Source: Chloroflexota bacterium
GTDB lineage: Bacteria > Chloroflexota > Anaerolineae > UBA4142
DNA length: 64,000 bases
Direction: 5' to 3'
Assembly: GCA_016215025.1 (NCBI GenBank)
Contig: JACRMI010000131.1
Span: 1-64,000, forward strand
Shown: positions 195-16,458 of the stretch, piece by piece
Layout of the letters: the number at the start of each line of letters is the position of its first letter
Numbering within the stretch: the stretch's first letter is position 1
Program-made: the position numbers and the translations under genes
Notes under the pieces: generated by a model
The model's database searches: none
What the model saw: only the letters and a program-made list of their open reading frames with translations
What the model was told of the DNA's origin: nothing

Positions 195-232
195 TATCTT
201 CCATCATCCATCTTTCGTCATCCGTCGCTTGA
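195..232. repeat. Degenerate tandem repeat at hisD 3' end
   Basis: Near-copies of the words CATCCATC and CATCCGTC run across the last codons and stop of hisD. The last residues (RRMTKDG) are encoded by it. No inverted arm is visible here, so it is a partial member of the junction array family. Confidence 0.4.
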
Positions 233-1541
233 TCGCATTCGCATGTGCGGTCAACCCCTCTGCTTCTGCAAGCGTCGCCGCAGTTCCCCCAAGTTCCCGT
301 GCTTCCGCTGCGCTCACACTAAACACACTCGTTATCTTTACAAAATCATTTACGTTCAAAGCGGAGCTAAATCTTGCCGTGCCAGCCGTTGGCATCACGT
401 GGCTCGGACCGATGACGTAATCGCCCAGCGCCTCGTTCGTCCATTCGCCGACAAACACGCCGCCTGCGTTCTCCACTTTGCCAACCCAGTTCCACGGATC
501 GCGCACAAGCAAGCACATATGCTCAGGCGCAAACGCGTTGCCTAGCTCCATCGCCTCGTCGAGATTTTCCACGACGATGATCGCGCCCTGCCCCGCCAGC
601 GATTTGGCGATGATGTCGCGACGTGAGAGATTAGAGATTTGAGATTCGAGATTTTCGGCGACTTGGTTTGCTAGTGATTGGGAAGTGGTAATCAGGATCG
701 ACGTTGCGAGTTCGTCGTGCTCGGCTTGAGCGAGCATGTCGGCGGCGCACCATGCAGGATTGGCAGAATCATCGGCGATGAGTAGCGTTTCGGTAGGACC
801 ATATAATCCATCGATGCCGACAGCGCCAAAGACCTGGCGCTTTGCCAGCGTCGTGAACAGCCCGCCCGCGCCGACAATTTTGTCGACGCGCGCAACGGTC
901 TCCGTGCCGAATGCTAACGCGGCGATGCTTTGCGCCCCGCCCATCGCATACACGCGCGATACGCCAACAATTTTTGCGGCGGCGAGTGTGGCGATTTGAA
1001 TATGCCCAGTCTTCATCGGCGGCGTCGCAACGATGATTTCACGCACGCCCGCGACCTGCGCTGGAATCGACGACATCAGCAACGACGATGGCAGCGGCGC
1101 GGTTCCACCTGGCACATACACGCCGACACGCGCGAGTGGAATAATTTTTTGCCCGAGTGCTCCCTGACCATTCCAATCGAGCCATGATTTCGGCTTTTGT
1201 TTTTCGTGGAATGCGCGCACACGACTCGCCGCCAATTCCAGCGATTCGCGCACCGCAATCGGCGTCTCGGCGTACGCCGCATCGATTTCATCTTGGCTGA
1301 CGGCAACCGTTTGCAAATCGACGCGATCCAGCTTGCGCGTCCAATCGAGCAGAGCCGCATCGCCGCGCGTGCGAACATCGGCGATGATACGTGTGACACC
1401 TTGCTCCGGCGTCAACGCTTCGCCAAACGTTTTCTGCAAGCGATCCGCCAACGCCGGCGTAATGTCAATATCAATCAATGAACGATTGCGGAGAATTTTT
1501 TCTTGCCCTGCTGTTTTGCCACCAATAATCGGCATTATCAT
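204..1541 (-). CDS. hisD: Histidinol dehydrogenase
   Basis: HisD performs the last two steps of histidine synthesis, oxidising L-histidinol to histidine with two NAD in the cytoplasm. At 445 residues it has normal length. The zinc and catalytic positions are present: QAEHDE near 272-277, APEH near 340, GDY-V-GPSH, and AH near the C-terminus. Two motifs deviate: the usual GPGN reads GAGG (about 224-227) and the AGPSE motif reads YGPTE (247-251). The start ATG has GAGG about 8 nt upstream; a second ATG lies two codons later. It is the last gene of the hisZ-hisG-hisD operon, 80 nt after hisG. Codons near 625-660 and at the 3' end are made of short degenerate repeats. Confidence 0.95.
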   Translation of the reverse strand: MIMPIIGGKTAGQEKILRNRSLIDIDITPALADRLQKTFGEALTPEQGVTRIIADVRTRGDAALLDWTRKLDRVDLQTVAVSQDEIDAAYAETPIAVRESLELAASRVRAFHEKQKPKSWLDWNGQGALGQKIIPLARVGVYVPGGTAPLPSSLLMSSIPAQVAGVREIIVATPPMKTGHIQIATLAAAKIVGVSRVYAMGGAQSIAALAFGTETVARVDKIVGAGGLFTTLAKRQVFGAVGIDGLYGPTETLLIADDSANPAWCAADMLAQAEHDELATSILITTSQSLANQVAENLESQISNLSRRDIIAKSLAGQGAIIVVENLDEAMELGNAFAPEHMCLLVRDPWNWVGKVENAGGVFVGEWTNEALGDYVIGPSHVMPTAGTARFSSALNVNDFVKITSVFSVSAAEARELGGTAATLAEAEGLTAHANAIKRRMTKDG

Positions 1542-1556: not shown

Positions 1557-1640
1557 TTCGTGTTGCGTGGTACGTGTTTCGTCTCTTCACGCAACACGAA
1601 ACACGCAGCACGTTTCACGCATCACGTTTCACGCATCACG
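1557..1640. repeat. Palindromic degenerate tandem array, hisG/hisD junction
   Basis: The left arm repeats words like CGTGTTGCGT and CGTGTTTCGT. The right arm carries the inverse (ACGCAACACG, AAACACGCAG, CACGCATCACG). The right arm covers the stop codon and last codons of hisG. The transcript could fold into a hairpin between the two genes. Confidence 0.6.
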
Positions 1641-2260
1641 TTTTCAATCTTTTCAATCAACGTACGCACCTCATCCACCTTCAACGTGTGCGAAGCGCGA
1701 TTGACGATCAGTGTCGCTTGCGATCTAAAAATCTCGTCGAGTTCGATCAAGCCATTCGCTTTCAACGTGCTCCCAGTATCCACTACATCGACGATCAAAT
1801 CGGCGAGACCAACTGCTGGCGCAAGCTCAACCGAACCATAGACCTCGATGATTTCGGCAGAGAGACCGCGCGCCGAAAAATATTGTTTAGCGACGCGCGG
1901 ATATTGCGTCGCGATCCGTAGTCCCGTGAGCAAACGCCATTCCATCGTTTTGTATTCTGGCTTGCCCGCGACCATCAAACGACAATTGCCATAACCAAGC
2001 ACGGCAGGCTCGTAAACATTGACACCACTTTCGCGCAGCGCATCCTGTCCGACGATGCCCACATCCGCCGCGCCGTACTCTACATAGATGGGTACGTCCA
2101 TTGGCTTGGCCAGCAAATAGCGGACATTGTGCGCTCCATCGTCGATCACTAATTTGCGCGTTTCTTTAACCGCACGCAAATCGTAACCGATCGATTCGAG
2201 CAACTTGATGGAATCGTCCAGTAAGCGGCCCTTGGCAAGTGCGATTTTCAAGCTAGTCAT
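1622..2260 (-). CDS. hisG: ATP phosphoribosyltransferase, short form catalytic subunit
   Basis: HisG joins ATP and PRPP to begin histidine synthesis. This is the short form of 212 residues, which lacks the C-terminal regulatory domain and therefore needs HisZ; hisZ is directly upstream in the same operon. Visible signatures are the N-terminal LKIALAKGR, the GAADVGIVGQDAL segment, and the PRPP loop DLIVDVVDTGSTLKANGL. The final residues (ENVMRET) come from the repeat array at the junction. The start ATG follows a 64-nt gap holding another array. Confidence 0.93.
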   Translation of the reverse strand: MTSLKIALAKGRLLDDSIKLLESIGYDLRAVKETRKLVIDDGAHNVRYLLAKPMDVPIYVEYGAADVGIVGQDALRESGVNVYEPAVLGYGNCRLMVAGKPEYKTMEWRLLTGLRIATQYPRVAKQYFSARGLSAEIIEVYGSVELAPAVGLADLIVDVVDTGSTLKANGLIELDEIFRSQATLIVNRASHTLKVDEVRTLIEKIENVMRET

Positions 2261-2273
2261 TGAAAAATCCTAA

Positions 2274-2350
2274 ATGAGACGCGGACAAACGCGGACAAAC
2301 GCAGAAAAAATATTTTATCCGTGTTCATCCGCGTTCATCCGCGTCCAATA
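2274..2350. repeat. Palindromic degenerate tandem array, hisZ/hisG junction
   Basis: The left arm has copies of ACGCGGACAA. After an A/T-rich loop the right arm has the inverse word TTCATCCGCG repeated. The right arm overlaps the 3' end of hisZ, so the last residues DADERG are repeat-encoded. Confidence 0.65.
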
Positions 2351-3518
2351 ATTCCTTTTGCCCATCGCGCCACCAAATTTCGCCCGCGCCGCGAATGCGC
2401 GCATACTCACGCAAATCGTTTTCGTTGCGATTCAGTATATCGGTCTCGATAATTCTGCCTTCGGCGCGGGCTAGCTCGACTTTTGTTCCGTATTCTTGCG
2501 CGATCACATCCGGTGCGATGGTCGCTTTGATCGCGCCGCGCGAACGAAGCGCGATCAGAACACGTTCGATGCCGATGGCGAAACCAACGGCGGGAATGCT
2601 CGGACCGAAATGATTGATGAGATTGTCATAGCGTCCACCGCTGACAACGGCGAAACCAAGTCCATGCACAAAGCCCTCGAACATCATGCCCGTGTAATAC
2701 TCCATCCCGCGATTTTCCGCAAGATCGAGCGTGACCAAATCGGCAAAACCAAATTGCTTGAGCCGAGCCAGCACATCGTGAAGATGTTCGATGGCGGCGC
2801 GCGCATCGTCGTTCACACACTCGGCTCGATTCAACACATCGCTGCTGCCGTACAACGTCGGCAATTGCGCCAGCACGCGTTTGTGCGTCGCATCGATGTT
2901 CAATGAATCGCTCAGGCGCTTGAGCGCAGGCGAGTTCTTGCGTCGAATCGCATCATGCAACGCAGAATCGTCCGCATCGTTCAAACCTAGATCACGTGTC
3001 GTCGCAAGCAAATATGCTGCGTTGCTCAGCGTAAATCGAAAATCGGCGAGACCAATCGCCCGCAGTGCCGTCATCGCGAGCGCAATCGTTTCGGCATCCG
3101 CATCGGCAGTCGCTGCGCCAATCAATTCGATACCCCCTTGCGTGAACTCGCGGCGCATTCCTGCTTGCGGTTCTTCGTAGCGAAACACGGAACCGATGGC
3201 ATAAAATCGCAATGGCATCGCGCGATCATACAATTTTGTGCCGACAATTCGCGCGGTCGGGATCGTAAAATCGGCGCGGAGTGCCAGTGTCCGACCATCG
3301 CGATCAAAAAATCGATACATCTCTTCGCGCAGTTGTGGACCTGCTTCAGCCGCGAGCGATTCGTAATATTCAAAAGTCGGCGGAATGATTTCGGAATAGC
3401 CCCAGCGCGCGAACGTATCGGCGAGTGTACGTTCGACCGCACGTTTGCGCGCCGCATCGTTGAAAAATAAATCGGCGACGCCGTGAGGCAGTTGTTTGTC
3501 GAGCGGTTGAGAGATCAT
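2325..3518 (-). CDS. hisZ: ATP phosphoribosyltransferase regulatory subunit
   Basis: HisZ is a catalytically inactive class II histidyl-tRNA synthetase paralogue that binds the short HisG and makes it active and histidine-sensitive. The class II synthetase fold shows in motif 2 (RFYAIGSVFRYEEPQAGMRREFTQ) and in GGRYDNL followed by AVGFAIGIERVL. The chosen start (MISQPLDKQ) has GGAG about 8 nt upstream, giving 397 residues. The reading frame stays open further upstream, but that stretch contains the leader terminator, so it is taken as untranslated. First gene of the his operon. An alternative, true HisRS, is less likely given the short HisG beside it and the short C-terminal part. Confidence 0.9.
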   Translation of the reverse strand: MISQPLDKQLPHGVADLFFNDAARKRAVERTLADTFARWGYSEIIPPTFEYYESLAAEAGPQLREEMYRFFDRDGRTLALRADFTIPTARIVGTKLYDRAMPLRFYAIGSVFRYEEPQAGMRREFTQGGIELIGAATADADAETIALAMTALRAIGLADFRFTLSNAAYLLATTRDLGLNDADDSALHDAIRRKNSPALKRLSDSLNIDATHKRVLAQLPTLYGSSDVLNRAECVNDDARAAIEHLHDVLARLKQFGFADLVTLDLAENRGMEYYTGMMFEGFVHGLGFAVVSGGRYDNLINHFGPSIPAVGFAIGIERVLIALRSRGAIKATIAPDVIAQEYGTKVELARAEGRIIETDILNRNENDLREYARIRGAGEIWWRDGQKELLDADERG

Positions 3519-3534
3519 GGATGCTCCAAATAAC

Positions 3535-3564
3535 AAAAAAGACAAGTCAACGCGACTTGTCTTT
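3535..3564 (-). terminator. Intrinsic terminator (attenuator) in the his leader
   Basis: On the minus strand an 11-bp perfect stem, AAAGACAAGTC with GACTTGTCTTT, closes a 5-nt loop and runs into six U. It ends about 16 nt before the hisZ start and follows a leader peptide with three His codons, so it is read as the attenuator of the operon. Confidence 0.85.
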
Positions 3565-3615
3565 GGGGTGAGTGTGAAACGCCAAAATGGCGACTCGGTT
3601 TTACCGACCCACCCC
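3565..3615 (-). promoter_or_regulatory. Branched structure ahead of the his attenuator
   Basis: GGGGTGGGT (fwd 3607-3615) can pair with ACTCACCCC (fwd 3565-3573) over 9 bp with one G-U. It encloses two small hairpins, CGGT/ACCG and CGCCA/TGGCG. The structure abuts the terminator stem and overlaps the end of the leader ORF, so a ribosome reaching the stop codon would open it. Confidence 0.6.
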
Positions 3616-3657
3616 ATTTAGGTGATGATGCTTTGGACAAAACTCTGTTGTGAACAT
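3601..3657 (-). CDS. His operon leader peptide with three consecutive His codons
   Basis: The 18-residue peptide is MFTTEFCPKHHHLNGVGR, with codons CAT CAT CAC at 3622-3630. It lies between a consensus promoter and an intrinsic terminator, directly upstream of hisZ-hisG-hisD. In enterobacterial his operons such a peptide senses charged tRNA-His by ribosome stalling; the same role is inferred here. The ATG starts only 9 nt past the -10 box, so the message is probably leaderless and no Shine-Dalgarno is needed. Which RNA segment acts as antiterminator could not be settled by eye. Confidence 0.75.
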   Translation of the reverse strand: MFTTEFCPKHHHLNGVGR

Positions 3658-3665
3658 TTGCGGCG

Positions 3666-3694
3666 ATTATATGCGAAACGTGCTTGATTGTCAA
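3666..3694 (-). promoter_or_regulatory. Consensus sigma-70-type promoter of the his operon
   Basis: On the minus strand TTGACA (3689-3694) and TATAAT (3666-3671) are separated by exactly 17 nt. Both hexamers match consensus fully. The predicted start site falls at or next to the ATG of the leader peptide. Confidence 0.88.
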
Positions 3695-3732
3695 ACCCGC
3701 AAAGCCGATATTTAATCCGAATGGAGGAACAC

Positions 3733-4101
3733 ATGGCAAGTGTATTAACACAACATATCGAAATCACACCTGGTGTATTCGGTGGCAAACCACACATCGC
3801 AGGGCATCGAATTCGCGTAATGGACATTGTTGCTTGGCACGAAAAACGCGGACTATCCCCCGATGAAATCGTAACCCTTTATCCGAGTATCACACTTGCA
3901 GATGTTCATGCCGTACTCGTCTATTACTTCGATCACCGTGAAGAAATCGAAGCCGCATTTAAACACGAATTTCGTTCGCACGAAACGAAAACCGTGTGGT
4001 CGTTACACTCGACGATGATTTTCTCACGCTGGCAGCGAGCGGTATCGAACATTCAGGAATCACCTATTGCACCGCAACCAAGTACTCCGTCGGTGAATTG
4101 A
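3733..4101 (+). CDS. DUF433-type antitoxin with an abnormal C-terminus
   Basis: The first 75 or so residues match the DUF433 family, small helical proteins that usually act as antitoxin to a PIN-like DUF5615 toxin: ITPGVFGGKPHIAGHRIRV, then a segment ending LSPDEIVTLYP, then LADVHAVLVYYFDHREEI. The start has GGAGG 5 nt upstream. After about residue 80 the frame runs into sequence that encodes the toxin C-terminus in another frame, so the tail from about ETKTVWSLHST onward is probably nonsense. See the toxin remnant. The module is likely inactive. Confidence 0.75.
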   Translation: MASVLTQHIEITPGVFGGKPHIAGHRIRVMDIVAWHEKRGLSPDEIVTLYPSITLADVHAVLVYYFDHREEIEAAFKHEFRSHETKTVWSLHSTMIFSRWQRAVSNIQESPIAPQPSTPSVN

Positions 4102-4172
4102 TTTACGCCTTGTTACTTGTTGCGAGTGTGCTTGAATCTGCCGACATGCGCAACCAAATCGAATTTCTTTGA
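3990..4172 (+). pseudogene. DUF5615-type toxin remnant, out of frame behind the antitoxin
   Basis: Read in the frame of 3993, this stretch gives VVVTLDDDFLTLAASGIEHS, then GITYCTATKYSVGELIYALL, and ends MRNQIEFL before TGA at 4170-4172. This is the C-terminal half of the toxin usually encoded after DUF433. The N-terminal half of about 45 residues and the antitoxin stop are missing, which points to one deletion that joined the two genes out of frame. Confidence 0.72.
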
Positions 4173-4174
4173 GT

Positions 4175-4203
4175 TTGACATTGCGCGCAAGCTATGTTAT
4201 ATT
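4175..4203 (+). promoter_or_regulatory. Promoter of the arginine operon
   Basis: TTGACA (4175-4180) and TATATT (4198-4203) are separated by 17 nt. Transcription would begin near 4210, about 11 nt before the leader ORF. Confidence 0.82.
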
Positions 4204-4220
4204 CGCGCCACGTTAGCAAT

Positions 4221-4301
4221 ATGAAGATTTCAATTGCATTGCCTACTCGACCGCGTCCTACACTAGATCATGCGTCTGGTGTTTTTGGCATTGCAATCTA
4301 A
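4221..4301 (+). CDS. Putative arginine operon leader peptide
   Basis: A 26-codon ORF beginning MKISIALPTRPRPTL carries CGA at 4248-4250 and CGT at 4254-4256, between the operon promoter and an intrinsic terminator. ATTGCATTGCC (4233-4243) can pair with GGCATTGCAAT (4287-4297) with one mismatch, placing the Arg codons in the loop. In that loop GTCTGG (4274-4279) copies part of the terminator 3' arm and could pair with CCAGAC of its 5' arm as an antiterminator. There are only two Arg codons and no Shine-Dalgarno, so the peptide is less certain than the terminator. Confidence 0.5.
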   Translation: MKISIALPTRPRPTLDHASGVFGIAI

Positions 4302-4328
4302 CTGCTTGAACTAGTTATTTTTGAATGC

Positions 4329-4366
4329 AACCCAGACCACAGCTTTGTCGGTCTGGGTTTTTATTT
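4329..4366 (+). terminator. Intrinsic terminator (attenuator) in the arg leader
   Basis: AACCCAGACC (4329-4338) pairs with GGTCTGGGTT (4350-4359), with ACA/TGT extending the stem inside and TTTTTATTTT following. It lies between the operon promoter and argC, so it must be read through for expression. Confidence 0.85.
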
Positions 4367-16264: not shown

Positions 16265-16296
16265 AAACCGACCGGCAGAACACATGCGGTCGGTTT
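16265..16296 (-). terminator. Intrinsic terminator in the beta-helix operon leader
   Basis: On the minus strand AAACCGACCG pairs with CGGTCGGTTT over 10 bp around a 12-nt loop, with five U following. It lies about 50 nt before the first beta-helix gene and about 300 nt after the predicted promoter, so it suggests attenuation or a riboswitch-like leader. Confidence 0.7.
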
Positions 16297-16311
16297 CGCC
16301 ACTTGCTCCCT

Positions 16312-16458
16312 CTAGTCGCTGGCGTCCAAATGTCGGAGAGTTCCCGACTGACCGGAGATCAACGCATCCGCTGGATCAATGTTTGACATCTGCCGTATCA
16401 AGTCTCTGCAAAGCATATGACAAATGTCGGAGATCTCAATCTTAAATGCTTGGTCCAC
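16312..16458 (-). CDS. Putative 48-codon ORF in the beta-helix leader
   Basis: Starting at GTG it begins VDQAFKIEISDICHMLCRDL and ends LRHLDASD. The composition looks protein-like and amphipathic, and the strong AGGAGG lies directly against the GTG, which is too close for normal initiation. The leader terminator follows its stop. It could be a small regulatory protein, a leader ORF, or chance inside a structured RNA. No homologue is recognised. Confidence 0.3.
   Translation of the reverse strand: MDQAFKIEISDICHMLCRDLIRQMSNIDPADALISGQSGTLRHLDASD

Follow-up and report, generated by a model that had tools for sequence, protein, structure and literature searches.

Upstream of hisZ, the 64,000-nt stretch of Chloroflexota DNA analysed here (the window) carries a promoter, a short histidine-rich open reading frame (ORF) and a terminator. 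This arrangement raises the question of whether ribosome-mediated attenuation controls histidine synthesis in this lineage and, if so, how a ribosome stalled on the leader could be coupled to termination. As the overall explanation, we favor an attenuator that senses charged tRNA-His and controls hisZ-hisG-hisD, to which we assign a probability of about 0.7. Ribosome-mediated histidine attenuation is well supported by the comparison of leader sequences, and its use for histidine sensing is very probable.

The hisZ leader and its occurrence in related genomes

The initial annotation had described a TTGACA-17-TATAAT promoter, an 18-codon ORF with CAT CAT CAC, a branched hairpin, a six-U terminator, a GGAG and the genes hisZ-hisG-hisD, and every one of these elements is present in the sequence (Table 1). 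The three proteins match their NCBIfam models above the curated cut-offs. The branched hairpin, P1, contains two inner hairpins in the minimum free energy (MFE) fold, and the leader region reaches -46.8 kcal/mol (z = -3.66), with 0 of 200 shuffles equally stable. No Rfam family was found at the leader; in particular, neither the enterobacterial His_leader (RF00514) nor the T-box covariance model matched at gathering score, or within 3480-3720 at E up to 10. Elsewhere in the window, a divergent small gene that by eye resembles a DUF433-type antitoxin starts just upstream of the his promoter and is followed by an apparently frame-disrupted partner (3732-4170, plus strand), and a c-di-GMP-II-GAG riboswitch (RF03169, 49.6 bits) lies at 16279-16378 on the minus strand.

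Table 1. Features of the his locus and of the neighboring argC leader, with window coordinates.
Feature	Position	Strand	Basis or remark
-35 hexamer TTGACA	3694-3689	-	sequence; relatives mostly consensus or one mismatch
-10 hexamer TATAAT	3671-3666	-	sequence; 17-nt spacer to -35
8-nt stretch CGCCGCAA between -10 and leader ATG		-	sequence
Leader ATG	3657-3655	-	sequence
Leader ORF MFTTEFCPKHHHLNGVGR, 18 codons, probably leaderless	3657-3601	-	similar ORFs (KHHHxxGVxR) in the window's family
His control codons CAT CAT CAC (n = 3)	3630-3622	-	at least two consecutive His codons in 51/53 leaders
Leader ORF stop TAA	3603-3601	-	sequence
P1 5' arm (B) UGGGGUGGGU, overlaps the leader ORF at its 3' end	3616-3607	-	fold and comparison
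B', part of B able to pair alternatively with segment C	3603-3613	-	local fold without D
Segment C, alternative partner of B and competitor of D	3589-3599	-	cognate pairing in the window's family
P1 3' arm (D) ACUCACCCCA, directly adjoining the terminator	3573-3564	-	comparison; adjacency also from unconstrained search
Intrinsic terminator hairpin AAAGACAAGUCG-CGU-UGACUUGUCUUU	3538-3564	-	fold and alignment
Terminator arms AAAGACAAGTCG / TGACTTGTCTTT, loop CGT	3564-3553 and 3549-3538	-	sequence
Terminator U tract, six U	3540-3535	-	sequence
GGAG, likely Shine-Dalgarno of hisZ	3527-3524	-	sequence
hisZ, ATP phosphoribosyltransferase regulatory subunit, ATG at 3518	2325-3518	-	NCBIfam TIGR00443
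hisG (short form)	1622-2260	-	NCBIfam TIGR00070
hisD	204-1541	-	NCBIfam TIGR00069
argC leader, arginine attenuator candidate: TTGACA-17-TATATT, ORF MKISIALPTRPRPTLDHASGVFGIAI*	4175-4359	+	

To follow the leader through related genomes, HisZ was searched for in 99 relatives and the upstream DNA was then read. The same layout precedes hisZ in 10/10 usable members of the window's family, in six members of a sister family of the same order (which retains a mid-stem mismatch) and in many other families of the class, and in two genomes (L082 and L083) it precedes hisD instead. Reading the upstream DNA also revealed hisZ loci of the class without the layout (e.g., L026 and L031-L033). A covariance model of the layout (R1), run on 298 genomes of the class, matches in 62 at E <= 0.01. 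About 50 of these matches precede his genes, while the roughly ten weakest are not his leaders; the weak matches L097-L104 and L106 (E above 2e-4), which are terminators after tRNAs or other genes, were left out. Beyond the class, the layout was found in one genome of another class (L143/L188), and none of the clostridial hisZ loci scanned carries it.

The conserved order is promoter, short ORF, two to five His codons, about 7 nt, the long hairpin P1, 0-3 nt, and terminator. Among 53 his-operon leaders, the His run typically stops 5-9 nt ahead of P1, and in 52 of them the stop codon is placed -9 to +25 nt from the P1 start. When the best helix was sought anywhere (free search), the distance between the P1 end and the terminator was -2 to +7 nt in 49 of the 53. 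L082, a second copy of the His leader that precedes hisD (G012:C102:24212-24317), has AAG TAT CAT TTT, with a single His codon, in place of the His run, and keeps P1 and the terminator intact.

The initial annotation had proposed a histidine attenuator outside the enterobacteria, to be examined by aligning the DNA upstream of hisZ in relatives, and had named loss of the His codons where the terminator is kept as the pattern that would speak against it. In relatives, the His codons are conserved and the P1 and terminator stems covary; the three elements persist jointly from family to family, so this objection falls away.

Start of the leader ORF

The leader peptide had also been described as probably leaderless, its start lying 9 nt past the -10 box, and this distance holds for the window, where 8 nt intervene and the ATG begins at the ninth. 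The ATG follows the -10 element by 7-9 nt in 11/11 copies of the window's family. In the sister family, two tabulated leaders have 8-9 nt between the two and three more read by eye agree, so that the distance is short in every readable case of both families. Many leaders of other lineages have 14-30 nt between -10 and ATG, often with a Shine-Dalgarno sequence. Within the window's own genome, the pattern TTGACA-N16-18-TANAAT-N6-9-ATG has 24 matches, compared with none for the reversed pattern, and several of the 24 start long ORFs (e.g., MutS-like and RsmI-like proteins, named by eye). According to a published survey (PMC3160421), leaderless genes are predicted to make up a modest fraction in Chloroflexi. 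These promoter-to-ATG distances make a leaderless start likely in the window's family.

The same genome contains a leaderless ORF with Cys codons, MLSNLFSFALIICCICPGRGHAAASDGWTLHAD*, upstream of cysK (G000:C156 near 34,500; L207 and L213), in a leader that also carries a terminator and elements of the sequences GGGCGGGGGC/GCCCCCGC. In relatives, the G-rich RNA and a motif of the type CxC(P/T)GRG recur upstream of cysK at L214, L216, L217, L218, L225 and L226, and more loosely at L221. No Rfam family matched the cysK leaders; a SAM riboswitch (RF00162) lies near the cysK locus of one relative (L225, 921-1076).

Helices of the leader and the search for an antiterminator

Pairing was scored on a MAFFT alignment that had been built without structure. 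In this alignment, 92.6% of P1 and terminator cells pair, compared with 35-56% in slid controls, and the two helices contain 40 two-sided changes against a shuffle mean of 13. Both P1 and the terminator covary. A cognate test, in which the duplex energy of a leader's own segments was compared with that of the same segment paired with segments of other families, favored cognate partners for the P1 arms (B:D, p = 1.6e-10) and the terminator arms (E:F, p = 1.2e-10), although these p-values are optimistic and the test partly circular, the arms having been selected by their ability to pair; the structure-free alignment and the free helix search are less affected by this circularity. Every other segment pair in that test was not significant, including the region upstream of the His codons, or D, with the terminator. 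Cognate B:C pairing was better in 11/11 members of the window's family (p = 0.0005) and not significant in other families, and a B:C hairpin was accordingly rejected as a general feature, its support being confined to the window's family.

In the enterobacterial his attenuator, one strand of the terminator also belongs to the antiterminator. The initial annotation had supposed that the same principle works here and had remarked that the antiterminator pairing is not obvious by eye. Attenuation through His codons is retained from this proposal, while the shared-strand antiterminator is not, since the P1 loop, the upstream region, B and D show no pairing with either terminator arm above controls, in 27 and then in 53 leaders. 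The families resemble one another in their terminator arms, which makes the non-cognate control weak when taken alone; the shuffle control is free of that weakness. An antiterminator or pseudoknot in which the P1 loop pairs with the 5' arm of the terminator was suggestive by eye in several leaders and was rejected, as no enrichment appeared over the 27 or the 53.

As a positive control for the duplex search, we used the argC leader, which comes from the same window and the same family. Its GGUCUGG pairs with the terminator 5' arm CCAGACC (window core GUCUGG / CCAGAC), and in six relatives the ORFs upstream of argC have PRPR(R/S/K) Arg codons together with GGTCTGG; a literature search on arginine leader peptides in front of argC gave no relevant result. 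The same search gave a mean z of -2.4 for the argC leader across seven genomes, including one (L228) whose terminator the script miscalled, against +0.45 for the His leaders. Most argC-leader copies have a classical antiterminator by this search, whereas the His leaders, taken as a group, show none. For the His leaders, the matter goes beyond a pairing that is not obvious by eye, since the search does detect the one at argC.

It is therefore rather unlikely that these are classical attenuators in which a leader segment, such as a P1-loop pseudoknot, pairs with the terminator 5' arm when the ribosome stalls and was simply missed. Two order-level leaders do have long possible pairings between the P1 loop and this arm (L016, z = -2.2; L013, z = -1.55), the arm sequences are unusually conserved, and the exact motif AAGACTAGT..ACTAGTCTTTTTT occurs solely in his leaders among 120 genomes; the lack of enrichment against both non-cognate partners and shuffles, and the success of the same search at argC, argue in the other direction. 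We consider it comparably improbable that P1 is a pause hairpin, like hairpin 1:2 of trp and his leaders, that halts the polymerase inside the terminator until the ribosome comes, so that timing sets termination. As read from the sequence, about 10-12 nt separate the end of P1 from the terminator loop downstream of it, which is the distance of a hairpin-stabilized pause, but this distance differs between families, and a pause hairpin gives no cause for readthrough in starvation unless an antiterminator is added.

The conservation of the terminator arms themselves calls for comment. Each arm tends to the near-palindrome GACnnGTC (3538-3564 in the window, and relatives), often as ACTAGT. The pattern AAGACTAGTN{3,9}ACTAGTCTTTTTT occurs five times in 120 genomes, always in his leaders, and a generic ACTAGT-stem terminator was rejected on these counts. 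The arms might instead form an operator for a TrpR/HisR-type repressor, with the hairpin incidental, and ACTAGT does resemble a half-site of the TrpR operator motif in PMC9413887. This explanation is largely refuted and is very improbable, given that arm spacing varies from 11 to 17 nt, that a U tract always follows, that the arms covary, and that the Trp_repressor family (PF01371), present in the E. coli control, is absent from 25 relatives, in which no repressor was found to account for the ACTAGT arms. Finally, single short ORFs with three identical codons do arise by chance, but a chance combination of small ORF, His codons and terminator is refuted by the R1 matches across dozens of class genomes, the covariation and the fixed spacing, which together indicate that the layout is more than chance.

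A model of control and its relation to known attenuators

Comparison shows that the leaders share His codons, P1 and terminator, with the distances between them and the placing of the stop codon, and the mechanism that we favor, attenuation by a ribosome sensing charged tRNA-His, would act on these elements as follows. The head of the short, probably leaderless mRNA would be translated during its synthesis. With ample histidine, the ribosome would pass the His codons, reach the stop and cover B, so that P1 is blocked and the terminator releases RNA polymerase; because the stop codon is near the P1 start, a terminating ribosome would lie on B. When charged tRNA-His is scarce, the ribosome would halt at the first His codons with its leading edge just short of B, leaving B free to pair with D and form P1. 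The size of the ribosome footprint is such that an A site at the first or second His codon leaves the P1 5' arm free. Given the positions in the 53 leaders and a general ribosome footprint, this arm would be covered by a ribosome at the stop codon and left open by one at the first His codons. A local B:C hairpin would compete with P1 in the window's family.

Since the operon is biosynthetic and P1 would form in starvation, P1 would have to oppose termination, and since it shares no strand with the terminator, physical hindrance is the simplest reading. We tentatively propose that P1 may act as an antiterminator by abutment rather than by strand sharing: ending at the terminator base, it would hinder completion of the terminator, and transcription would go on. 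The terminator base, deep in the RNA exit channel, would need a single-stranded neighbor, and a rigid helix directly 5' of it would not fit. Still more tentatively, the leaders might represent a class of attenuator in which a stall-state helix abuts the terminator base without strand competition, coupled in the window's family to a leaderless start and hence to an mRNA with no untranslated 5' end. RNA folding of the alternatives, which the initial annotation had suggested, predicts the terminator in every ribosome state (ViennaRNA); folding was thus uninformative about the switch, and readthrough would have to rest on a steric or kinetic effect outside equilibrium folding. P1 is also the most stable fold in the absence of a ribosome. 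Readthrough would therefore be expected of a transcript that is not translated, barring a kinetic effect of B:C, and this is unlike superattenuation in E. coli. In some leaders of one family (f38), the gap between P1 and terminator reaches 4-6 nt, and among the weak R1 matches a few place a tRNA about 5 nt ahead of a presumably functional terminator; both observations count against abutment.

The leaders have sequence features that mark an amino-acid attenuator, namely clustered codons for the product amino acid, a terminator before the first gene and a conserved helix whose formation would depend on ribosome position; the shared-strand antiterminator that marks trp and his leaders of enterobacteria was not found in them. 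With the enterobacterial his attenuator (RF00514) they have in common a run of His codons in a short ORF, a stop codon followed by alternative structures, and a terminator. They differ in that the stall-state helix merely adjoins the terminator, and in usually having three His codons, often a probably leaderless ORF, and hisZ as the first gene. His attenuators of Firmicutes (Bacillus cereus group, Peptostreptococcaceae and Erysipelotrichales), predicted by comparison only, likewise have three to five consecutive His codons immediately upstream of the attenuator structures, but belong to a different phylum and are reported with alternative antiterminator hairpins, whereas hisZ is the first gene behind the Chloroflexota leader (PMC9413887); a location outside the enterobacteria is therefore not new in itself. 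The polycysteine attenuators of mycobacteria (Canestrari et al. 2020, cited in PMC9031893) are leaderless, as is probable for the Chloroflexota leader, and their short ORF likewise strings together codons for the amino acid that is sensed, but they sense cysteine and are described as controlling the translation of downstream genes, while the Chloroflexota leader has an intrinsic terminator; mycobacterial cys leaders are without conserved terminator hairpins (PMC1262725). The argC leader of the window likewise combines a short ORF with control codons and an intrinsic terminator before a biosynthetic operon, and differs in its classical shared-strand antiterminator. Our literature search returned no report of such a leader for Chloroflexota, although journals outside the search may contain one. 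Histidine attenuators are known and leaderless attenuators are known; the Chloroflexota form is apparently undescribed.

Textbook attenuation needs strand exchange between antiterminator and terminator. A conserved leader family that has control codons, hairpin and terminator and yet lacks a shared strand would amount to a second means of linking the ribosome to termination. For the organisms themselves, the leader is a likely control of histidine synthesis in Chloroflexota, in which the search of relatives found no TrpR/HisR-family repressor and, together with the arg and cys leaders, it suggests that attenuation may be a common device of these uncultured bacteria, acting in part on leaderless mRNAs.
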